Positions 17,316-20,721 of a stretch of DNA of 64,000 nucleotides are shown here, piece after piece. This stretch comes from Qipengyuania citrea (GTDB taxonomy: Bacteria > Pseudomonadota > Alphaproteobacteria > Sphingomonadales > Sphingomonadaceae). Location: the NCBI RefSeq assembly GCF_024171405.1, contig NZ_JALJZT010000002.1, positions 310,001 through 374,000 on the forward strand. The letters are read 5' to 3'. The notes under the pieces were generated by a model. The model saw nothing but the letters and a program-made list of their open reading frames with translations, searched no databases and was not told where the DNA came from. Every line of letters begins with the position of its first letter. Positions within the stretch are counted from its first letter, which is position 1. Both the position numbers and the translations under genes were made by a program.

Positions 17316-18701
17316 ATGGCGCTGGATATTCTCATCGTCGACGACGAACGCGACATCCGCGAACTGGTTGCCGGAGTGCTGAGCGACGAGGGCTATGAAT
17401 GCCGCACCGCGGGCGACAGCACCTCGGCGCTCGAGGCGATCGACGACAAGCGGCCGAGCCTGGTCCTGCTCGACGTGTGGCTGCACGGCAGCCCGATGGA
17501 CGGGCTGGAGGTGCTCGACGCGATCAAGGCACGCGAGCCTGACCTGCCGGTGATCATCTTTTCGGGCCACGGCAATATCGACACTGCGGTCAGCGCGGTC
17601 AGCCGCGGCGCGGTCGATTTCATCGAGAAGCCGTTCGAGGCCGAGCGCCTCCTGCATCTGGTCGAGCGTGCCACCGAGACCGAACGCCTGCGCCGCGAGA
17701 ACACGCGCCTGCGCGAGAACCAGGGGCAGGGCGACGAGTTCACCGGCAACTCGGCGGTCATCAACGCCGTGCGCGCCACGCTCAAGCGGGTCGCCAGCAC
17801 AGGGAGCCGGGTACTGGTGACCGGTCCTGCCGGCGCCGGCAAAGAGGTCGCCGCGCGCCTGCTCCACAGCTGGAGCTCGCGGACGGACAAGGCCTTCGTC
17901 ATTGTCAATTCTGCGCGGATTACGCCCGAGCGGTTCGAAGAGGAACTGTTCGGCGAGGAAGCCGATGGCAAGCTGGTCCGCCCGGGACTGCTGGAAACCG
18001 CGGATGGGGGCACGCTGTATCTCGACGAAGTGGCCGACATGCCGCTGTCGACGCAGGCCCGCATCCTGCGTGTCCTGACCGAGCAGAGTTTCGTCCGTGT
18101 CGGCGGGACACGGCAGATCGGCGTCGATGTGCGCGTCGTCTCCTCGACCTCGCGCGATCTGGCGGGTGAAATGGAAGAGAAACGCTTTCGCGAGGATCTG
18201 TTCTACCGGCTGAACGTCGTTCCGGTGGAAGTCCCCTCGCTGGCCGCGCGGCGCGACGACATCCCGGCGCTCGCCGACAGCTTTTTTGCCCGCTATGCGA
18301 CCGAGCAGGGCCTGCGGCCACCCACGATCAGCGAAGAGGCGATGGCCGCACTCCAAGCCTATGACTGGCCTGGAAATGTGCGCCAGCTGCGCAATGTGGT
18401 CGAGCGCACGATCATCCTGACCCCGCGCGACAGCCTTGAACGGATCGAGGTCGACATGCTTCCCGAAGAAGTGCTTGGCGGCAAGGCCGGCGGCAGCGGC
18501 GGAGTGGGGGCGATGATGGGCGCCCCGCTACGCGAAGCGCGCGAGAATTTCGAACGCGAATATCTGACCGTGCAGATCCGCCGGTTTTCGGGGAATATCT
18601 CGAAGACCGCGAACTTCATCGGGATGGAACGCTCGGCGCTGCACCGCAAACTCAAGCTGCTGGGTATGGTCGAGCGCAAGGGACCGGAGCGGAAGAACTG
18701 A
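17316..18701 (+). CDS. ntrX: Response regulator NtrX, without the sigma-54 GAFTGA loop
   Basis: A 461-residue NtrC-family regulator. The receiver has phosphoacceptor Asp53 (VLLDVWLHG). The AAA+ domain has Walker A GPAGAGKE (170-177) and the Walker B region LYLDEVADMP. The C-terminal Fis-type HTH is ISKTANFIGMERSALHRKL. Where NtrC has ELFGHERGAFTGA, this protein reads LFGEEADGKLVRPG, so the sigma-54 contact loop is missing and the region is four residues shorter. It probably regulates transcription without remodelling sigma-54 holoenzyme. AGGGA precedes the ATG. It is the last ntr gene before hfq. Confidence 0.95.
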   Translation: MALDILIVDDERDIRELVAGVLSDEGYECRTAGDSTSALEAIDDKRPSLVLLDVWLHGSPMDGLEVLDAIKAREPDLPVIIFSGHGNIDTAVSAVSRGAVDFIEKPFEAERLLHLVERATETERLRRENTRLRENQGQGDEFTGNSAVINAVRATLKRVASTGSRVLVTGPAGAGKEVAARLLHSWSSRTDKAFVIVNSARITPERFEEELFGEEADGKLVRPGLLETADGGTLYLDEVADMPLSTQARILRVLTEQSFVRVGGTRQIGVDVRVVSSTSRDLAGEMEEKRFREDLFYRLNVVPVEVPSLAARRDDIPALADSFFARYATEQGLRPPTISEEAMAALQAYDWPGNVRQLRNVVERTIILTPRDSLERIEVDMLPEEVLGGKAGGSGGVGAMMGAPLREARENFEREYLTVQIRRFSGNISKTANFIGMERSALHRKLKLLGMVERKGPERKN

Positions 18702-18868: not shown

Positions 18869-19408
18869 ATGTCCGGCGATCGAACACTTTCGGCACGACC
18901 GCGCCCAAAATCGCCCGAAACGGGCCCGGCAAGCCGCCCTGCCAACCTGCAGGACGCCTTCCTCAACCTGCTCCGCAAGAACAAGGCTCCGGTGACCATG
19001 TTTCTGGTCAAGGGCGTCAAGCTTCAGGGCATCGTCACGTGGTTCGACAATTTCTCGATCCTGCTGCGCCGCGATGGCCAGTCGCAGCTTGTCTACAAGC
19101 ATGCGATCAGCACGATCATGCCTTCGCAGCCGGTCGATACCACGCAATTCGCCAGCCAGGGTTCCTCCGCCAAGCAGCGCCTGTTGCAGGACGTTTTCCT
19201 CAGCCGGGTGCGCCAGGCCGAAGCCCAGGTGACCATGTTCCTCGTCAATGGGGTCATGCTCCAGGGGCGGATCGCCGCTTACGACCTCTTCTGCATGCTG
19301 CTCGAGCGCGACGGCTACGTCCAGCTGGCCTATAAGCACGCCGTGTCGACGATCCAGCCAGCCACTCCGGTCGATCTGACCGAGGAGTGGGAAGAAGACG
19401 AAAACTGA
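18869..19408 (+). CDS. hfq: Hfq RNA chaperone with two tandem Sm domains
   Basis: RNA chaperone pairing small RNAs with mRNAs. The 179-residue chain is nearly twice the usual length. After a 25-residue basic/proline-rich tail, domain 1 spans about 26-87 ([28 protein letters not shown]) and domain 2 about 104-166 ([21 protein letters not shown]), with an acidic tail [11 protein letters not shown]. Both keep the YKHA proximal-site motif. Domain 1 keeps a basic rim (RKNK); domain 2 has RQAE there and Met in place of the Lys of KLQG. Three double-domain chains could form the usual six-Sm ring. ntrX-hfq-hflX order supports identity. Confidence 0.95.
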
Positions 19409-20721
19409 GCTTCGACGATGACCTGATGGGCGAGGTTTCGCGCGGGGCGCGGGCACTGGTGGTGTGCCCGGACATCCGCGGGATGGCCTATGATCTCGAC
19501 GCGCAGTCGCGGCTTGCCGAAGCCGAGGGGCTGGCGCTGGCGATCGGCATTGCCATTGCCGACAGCTTCGTGCTGCCGGTGCGCGAAGTGCGCCCGAACC
19601 TGCTGTTCGGGGCGGGGCAGGTCGACAATATCCGCATCGCCTGCGAGCAGAACGAGGCCGAGCTTGTCGTCGTGGACGGGGCGCTGAGCCCGATCCAGCA
19701 GCGCAATCTGGAAGAAAAGCTCGCGCGCAAGGTCATCGACCGGACCGGACTAATCCTCGAGATATTCGGCGAGCGTGCGGCGACTGCCGAAGGCCGGTTG
19801 CAGGTCGAACTCGCGCATCTCGATTACCAGCAAAGCCGCCTCGTGCGCAGCTGGACCCACCTTGAACGCCAACGCGGTGGCTTCGGCTTCCTCGGCGGTC
19901 CGGGTGAAACCCAGATCGAGGCCGATCGCCGGATGATCCGCCAGCGGATGGGGCGGCTGCGCAAGGAGCTCGAACAGGTCCGCAAGACGCGCGGGTTGCA
20001 TCGCGAGCGGCGCGAACGTGCGCCATGGCCGGTGGTGGCGCTGGTCGGTTATACCAATGCAGGCAAGTCGACGCTGTTCAACCGCCTGACCGGGGCTGCG
20101 GTGATGGCGGAAGACCTGCTGTTCGCGACGCTCGACCCGACCATGCGCGCGATCACCCTGCCGGGGGTGGAAAAGGCCATCCTGTCGGATACGGTGGGCT
20201 TCATCTCCGATCTCCCGACGCAGCTGGTCGCCGCTTTTCGCGCGACGCTAGAGGAAGTCACCTCGGCCGATGTCATCTGCCACATCCGCGATATTTCCAA
20301 CCCCTCGACCGCTGCGCAAAAAGCGCAGGTGTTGCAGATCCTGCGCGATCTCGATGTGATCGAGGGGGAAGGGGAGGCATCCTCGATCCCGATCCTCGAA
20401 GTGTGGAACAAATGGGACCAGCTTGAGCCTACCCTGGCCGAGGAATTGGCCGCCCAGGCCGAGGCGAATGAGGATATCGTCACCACATCGGCGTTGACCG
20501 GCGAGGGGGTGGACCTTCTGCTCGAACGCCTGGGTGAGATGCTGACCCGAAATGCCGCGCTGCGCACCTTCGAAGTTCCGGCGGGCGATGGACGCCGGAT
20601 CGCCTGGCTCCACGCGCATGGGGAAGTGATCGAGGACATCGAGAGCGAGGACGGCGGTTCGCGGCAGATCACCGTAAGGCTCAACCCCAAGGAACTGGGG
20701 CAGTACGAGGCGCTGGCCTAG
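19387..20721 (+). CDS. hflX: Ribosome-associated GTPase HflX
   Basis: GTPase that binds and splits stalled 70S ribosomes. It has the N-terminal HflX domain ([14 protein letters not shown]), a coiled middle ([15 protein letters not shown]) and a G domain with Walker [11 protein letters not shown]3 DTVGF and G4 NKWD. The start used is GTG at 19387, which overlaps hfq by 22 bases and gives 444 residues. ATG at 19426 ([11 protein letters not shown]) is an alternative that removes the overlap. Its stop overlaps the convergent mazG stop in CTAG. hfq-hflX adjacency is conserved as in E. coli. Confidence 0.95.

Follow-up and report, generated by a model that had tools for sequence, protein, structure and literature searches.

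Hfq chains with two Sm-like domains were described by Yang et al. 2010 (PMC2877685) in Zymomonas (ZMO0347) and in six other members of the Sphingomonadales, and these authors also asked whether three such chains make a ring. Two hfq-like copies are recorded for Novosphingobium aromaticivorans (PMC3474761), which fits the doubled Novosphingobium Hfq mentioned in an initial annotation of the DNA studied here. An hfq insertion mutant of Z. mobilis is available (PMC2877685). The 161 amino acid Hfq of Z. mobilis was expressed as a GST fusion in a study (PMC4004385) the available part of which contains no oligomer data. Both the tandem architecture and the three-chain idea are already known.

The available parts of PMC9797736, PMC5770649 and PMC10725011 contain nothing on the two-domain question. 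A search of the open-access literature by titles and abstract openings found neither a domain asymmetry nor a structure of a tandem Hfq, and no oligomer mass for a tandem Hfq was found in the literature. A phmmer search of the PDB gave 35 sequences, the longest of 114 residues and each with a single matched stretch; no tandem Hfq structure was among them.

The tandem hfq gene and its locus

The window, the whole stretch of 64,000 nucleotides of Qipengyuania citrea DNA that was analysed, contains an hfq gene at 18869..19408 (+ strand, ATG to TGA). Searches of Pfam, NCBIfam and the PDB all identify its 179 amino acid product as Hfq. Two Sm domains in this one chain had been claimed in the initial annotation, and profile searches bear this out, with PF17209 matching twice in one uninterrupted frame (107.7 bits for domain 1 and 84.6 bits for domain 2; cut-off 27). 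Residues 18–178 match NF010691, a model for the whole tandem chain (300.5 bits; cut-off 270); an LSM profile gives a weak match below its cut-off (E 0.042). Since two Sm domains occupy 179 residues here, against one in about 70–100, the window chain is an Hfq variant rather than a typical member.

All parts of the gene lie on the + strand. The N-terminal extension (residues 1–25; 18869..18943) possesses a TL[ST][AVP]R motif; in the window chain the initiator is followed by no further Met ahead of domain 1. A pattern search located this motif in the extension of 68 of 141 tandem chains, the carriers including Novosphingobium (L053, L054) and an uncultured Erythrobacter (L060). Domain 1 (residues 26–85, corresponding to E. 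coli positions 6–64; 18944..19123) keeps the residues of all three RNA-binding surfaces. It is followed by an inter-domain linker with KQR at its end (residues 86–104; 19124..19180) and by domain 2 (residues 105–164; 19181..19360), in which the proximal site is kept, the rim charge is reduced and position 31 is changed. The last feature is an acidic C-terminal tail of 15 residues with a net charge of -7 (19361..19405). The span 18944..19366 assigned initially covers the two domains but omits the 25-residue N-terminal extension and the acidic tail.

The two domain copies are old, showing 58% amino acid identity over the aligned core and 64% nucleotide identity. A profile search of the genome itself revealed two Hfq matches, both inside the ORF at 18869–19408, and no second, separate hfq gene of the hfq2 type.

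Upstream of hfq lies a gene (17316..18701, + strand) for a putative ntrX-like response regulator, and downstream one (19387..20721, + strand) for a putative hflX-like GTPase. An hflX-like homolog is present at 184 of the 186 loci examined, so the window gene occupies the ordinary hfq locus and is no extra copy; the two loci without it (L097, L104) end at hfq or just past it. The hflX-like frame, read from a GTG start at 19387, shares its first 22 bases (19387–19408) with the end of hfq, and the true start may be further downstream. The ntrX-like gene is found near hfq in most loci of the window's family. It was not found in 30 loci of other families (L003–L018, L020–L032 and L121, with flanks of up to about 1.5 kb), so that the upstream neighbour seems to switch at the family border; nor was it found at L144.

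Distribution and origin of the two-domain chain

The distribution of tandem Hfq was investigated in 296 genomes drawn from the order, 213 of them in the window's family. Two Hfq matches were present in 202 of these 213 and one match in the remaining 11. Among the other families 77 genomes had an Hfq match and none a tandem; the second match of one of them (G001) is a 51-residue fragment on a separate contig. Six genomes, all outside the window's family, had no Hfq match. In wider samples NF010691 scored above its cut-off in 4 of 289 genomes of the class and 12 of 299 of the phylum, all of the same family, a cut-off that could miss a much diverged tandem, so that rare tandems outside the family are possible. 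A further family member in the phylum listing, G053, has a single-domain Hfq.

From loci found in the genome searches, which cover part of the 202 genomes and may include the same species twice, 144 complete two-domain chains were extracted, the window's included and each in one frame; removal of three identical chains left 141 non-redundant ones. Rows removed before counting were L001 and L002 (the window itself), L135, L136 and L138–L141 (second-domain copies of loci already included) and L137 (a 51-residue fragment at a contig end). L104, whose contig ends inside domain 2, belongs to a 145-row set and was left out of the set of 144. For comparison 41 single-domain rows were used, 34 of them distinct: 11 from the window's family and 30 from other families, all with N28 and K31.

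Plasmids were searched as well, and 84 records had a match. Among the best 15 of these 84, 14 consisted of two query pieces on one stretch of less than 300 bases, that is, of a single-domain Hfq, and one, from Sphingomonas parapaucimobilis, matched most of the chain in a single piece. The S. parapaucimobilis replicon concerned (NZ_CP155749.1; 880 kb) is filed as a plasmid and, given its hfq match of tandem length, could be a second chromosome.

Five metagenome proteins of 241–248 amino acids (P0009, P0012, P0015, P0023, P0060) show three Hfq domains with long repeated stretches. As their contigs measure 791–1621 bases and each has one member, they were set aside as possible misassemblies and not counted as further expansions; they may be either misassembly or real expansion. 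Two three-domain chains would, like three tandem chains, give six domains. No genome listed for the 296-genome sample of the order had three Hfq matches. Four proteins of 138–144 residues, which scored above the identical match in a protein search and were considered as a different tandem type, were rejected as pieces of the same type. In all, 31 proteins were inspected: the five with three domains, a single-domain one (P0200) and 25 tandem pieces, cut at one end or internally shortened.

One of the single-domain Hfqs of the window's family (L019) is identical to that of Sphingosinicella microcystinivorans, a species placed in the Sphingosinicellaceae in NCBI taxonomy. In a tree of HflX+NtrX from 50 loci, the eight single-domain genomes of the family that were used form one clade (100, starred). 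The tandem genomes are not one clade in the free HflX and HflX+NtrX trees, the free gene tree having been built on 110 of the 186 loci. Constraining them to one clade gave higher likelihoods in both (by 17.7 units for HflX and 8.8 units for HflX+NtrX), with p-AU of 0.73 and 0.80. A tree of the domains, drawn from 35 tandem chains, 17 single-domain chains and two references on only 65 columns, placed the 35 domain-1 rows in one clade (98, starred) and the 35 domain-2 rows in another (88, not starred). A single duplication, later than the branching-off of the Sphingosinicellaceae, is the most likely origin suggested by these trees, and the simplest reading is that gene conversion between the domains did not follow.

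RNA-binding surfaces of the two domains

Residues were counted in the 141 non-redundant tandem chains using E. coli numbering; 14 of the chains belong to one much diverged genus (g12) and 127 to the rest. At the proximal site Q8 and K56 are present in 141/141 chains in each domain, Y55 in 141/141 copies of domain 1 and 134/141 of domain 2 (the other seven having F), and H57 in 137/141 and 141/141, respectively. Outside g12, the window included, Q8, Y55, K56 and H57 occur in both domains of all 127 chains. The initial annotation had given YKHA for both domains, RKNK and RQAE for the two rims, K (domain 1) and M (domain 2) at position 31, and the domain boundaries; on checking the sequence all of these proved right.

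The distal adenosine site includes Q33, L32 and Q52 as well as the K31 backbone amide, and the purine site is formed by two neighbouring subunits (PMC6422490). Q52 is present in 141/141 chains in each domain, and Q33 in 141 copies of domain 1 and 131 of domain 2; Q33, Q52 and T61 are found in both domains of the 127/127 chains outside g12, the window among them. Two positions have changed in a reciprocal manner. At position 28 all 41 single-domain Hfqs have N, and every tandem chain (141/141, g12 included) has K in domain 1 (Lys48 in the window chain, 19010..19012). At position 31 the same 41 have K, which domain 2 has exchanged for M in 134/141 tandem chains, among them 127/127 outside g12 (Met130, 19256..19258). 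K28 in domain 1 and a non-basic residue 31 in domain 2 occur together in 139/141 chains, both exceptions being in g12. N28 presumably faces the distal side. The K-to-M change of KLQG had been grouped with the rim and its partner N28K missed; since K31 is a distal-site residue (PMC6422490), K31M is a distal-face asymmetry separate from that of the rim. In the same source the role of K31 is assigned to its backbone amide and not to its side chain, and the effect that N28K and K31M may have on RNA binding is uncertain.

The rim residues of Hfq are N13, R16, R17, R19, S38, F39 and K47 (PMC4337610, PMC5379935). Positions 16–19 read RKNK in domain 1 of the window (18974..18985) and RQAE in domain 2 (19211..19222). 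Basic residues occupy positions 16, 17 and 19 together in 34/34 single-domain chains, 135/141 copies of domain 1 and 3/141 copies of domain 2, and the net charge of the rim is +4 or +5 in 136/141 copies of domain 1 and +1 or less in 106/141 of domain 2. N13 is found in 141/141 and 17/141 copies, respectively; position 39 is F in all 141 copies of domain 1 and Y (82), F (48) or H (11) in domain 2. Over the core the median net charges are +4 for single-domain chains, +5 for domain 1 and -1 for domain 2. The claim that domain 2 lacks rim residues is partly right, the basic triplet being lost in most chains but not in all, and goes too far for the window chain, which keeps R16; domain 2 retains R16 in 106/141 chains. 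K or R is found at position 17 of domain 2 in 42/141 chains and, since 34 of the 127 chains outside g12 are among these, domain 2 tends strongly to lose its rim charge without this being a rule. The search for tandems across the Sphingomonadales and the alignment of each domain, as had been proposed, showed that the asymmetry in functional residues is conserved family-wide and is not peculiar to the Qipengyuania citrea genome.

Domain 2 has further residues of its own. It is hydrophobic at positions 41 (125/141), 50 (118/141) and 51 (121/141), where 0, 2 and 3 of the 41 single-domain Hfqs are so, and it is nearly fixed for L41 (120/141) and A37 (122/141). Outside g12, Q63 and M31 are each found in 127/127 copies. 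In seven columns a residue is present in at least 80% of the copies of one domain and in none of the 41 single-domain chains.

The linker, taken from after P64 of domain 1 through position 6 of domain 2, measures 15–24 residues (median 21); the eight residues at its end are net positive in 127/144 chains. An acidic tail is present after domain 2 only; its median charge is -6 (-2 or lower in 127/127 chains outside g12), and that of single-domain tails is -4.

Both domains are constrained, domain 2 more loosely. Domain 1 has a median dN/dS of 0.12 and domain 2 one of 0.20 over 521 pairs of moderate synonymous divergence, pairs which are not independent and whose synonymous sites are probably partly saturated; domain 1 is the more conserved in 9776 of 10296 chain pairs. 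In g12 the acidic tail has been lost from nine chains (L126–L134, from genomes of 2.1–2.6 Mb), all nine with G in place of W38 in domain 1 and six of them without K or R at domain-1 position 19; the five tailed chains of this genus keep both W38 and K19 (loss 0/5 each). As the nine form one clade in the gene tree, the loss of tail and W38 counts as one event, which agrees with a coupling of tail and rim and is no proof of it.

Models of the ring and comparison with known systems

From these residue patterns we infer the composition of the ring, the docking of its tails and the effects on RNA. The preferred reading, to which we give a probability of about 0.6, is a pseudo-hexamer made of three chains, in which the proximal face would be six-fold and the basic rim three-fold and each acidic tail would gate the rim of a neighbouring domain 1. 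Three chains would close into one ring of six Sm domains in which domains 1 and 2 alternate. The proximal face would stay six-fold because the uridine-binding residues are kept in both domains, and the rim would be three-fold because the full basic rim, the promoter of sRNA-mRNA annealing, is found only in domain 1. Each pair of domains holds two lysines over positions 28 and 31 taken together, both now on domain 1. The acidic tail has been replaced by the linker after domain 1 and retained after domain 2. With the tail after domain 2 only and the basic rim on domain 1, three tails would face three rims, and this match is our main argument for an alternating ring of three chains.

The acidic tail of Caulobacter Hfq docks on basic rim residues of the neighbour, as observed in a crystal in which tails also pack on neighbouring hexamers; its CTD is 15 residues long, and E75 bonds with the neighbouring protomer within the hexamer (PMC6561178). 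Because those 15 residues reach the neighbouring protomer, a linker of 15–24 residues plausibly spans neighbours as well. A more demanding version is put forward tentatively, at slightly less than an even chance. Here the (1-2)3 alternation would be obligate, the uridine face six-fold and the annealing rim three-fold; the six distal lysines would be redistributed to every second subunit, and each of the three acidic tails would gate one active rim. Covariation between the domains showed no clear pattern in its top pairs, the effective number of sequences (9.6) being too low to test neighbour contacts.

Same-type domains could instead assemble with one another, giving a domain-1 homohexamer with domain 2 either hanging outside or forming a second, stacked ring (six chains, twelve domains). 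The linker, with its median of 21 residues, may be long enough for either arrangement, and only domain 1, the more conserved copy in the 9776 of 10296 pairs, possesses the residues of every Hfq surface. We nevertheless consider such an assembly unlikely, since Q8, Q52, K56 and H57 are kept in 141/141 copies of domain 2, as expected of a ring member, and since the lysine lost from domain 2 has a counterpart in the one gained by domain 1, a pairing that makes better sense if the two share one face; both points are indirect.

Less likely again is that the outer edge of domain 2 is no empty rim but has become a surface on which a protein partner or another ring docks, a role compatible with the alternating ring. 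The common polar-to-hydrophobic changes of domain 2 at positions 41, 50 and 51 and its near-fixed L41 and A37 speak for such a site, but no partner is known from this analysis. That domain 2 is simply carried along and decays without a specific role, its rim lost by drift, would suit its faster evolution (median dN/dS 0.20 vs 0.12) and its strong divergence in g12, and is nonetheless very improbable: M31 and Q63 are fixed in the 127 chains outside g12 and not scattered, dN/dS is well below 1, and two matches are kept in 202/213 family genomes. An assembly or sequencing artefact that duplicated one domain, foreseen in the initial annotation as its refutation, is itself refuted by the difference between the domains at 42% of aligned residues, the same architecture in 143 chains from other loci, the two matches in those 202 genomes and the 144 in-frame chains.

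The tandem chain bears on questions that are hard to ask of the normal Hfq ring of six identical subunits, such as the need for each rim and tail and the hand-over of RNA between faces. As two kinds of domain are fixed in one chain across most of the family, each class of site could be mutated separately in a laboratory strain.

What is new here is the regular, family-wide and reciprocal change at positions 28 and 31 together with the one-sided rim. The model NF010691 (PRK14091, RNA chaperone Hfq, 176 positions) matches the whole chain and, consisting of a name and a profile only, is silent on the roles of the domains. The best sequence match among solved structures is 6gwk, which we take to be the Hfq of Caulobacter crescentus. 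C. crescentus Hfq has an acidic tail and a basic rim of the same kind as the window chain, but one domain per chain and six identical rims and tails (PMC6561178). The ZMO0347-type tandem resembles the window chain in having two Sm-like domains in one chain and in its occurrence in the Sphingomonadales; differing binding residues between its domains are not given in the available text of PMC2877685. Burkholderia, with hfq and hfq2, likewise has more than one Hfq-type domain per genome, but in two separate genes (PMC3474761). Eukaryotic LSm/Sm rings are also built of different subunits, but these are seven separate, unfused gene products (PMC2877685). If the obligate alternating ring is real, this naturally symmetry-broken Hfq would be the bacterial, single-gene equivalent of the transition from homomeric to heteromeric Sm rings. 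The fused chain also shows, with a position on a tree, how an Sm ring of identical subunits could turn into a heteromeric one.
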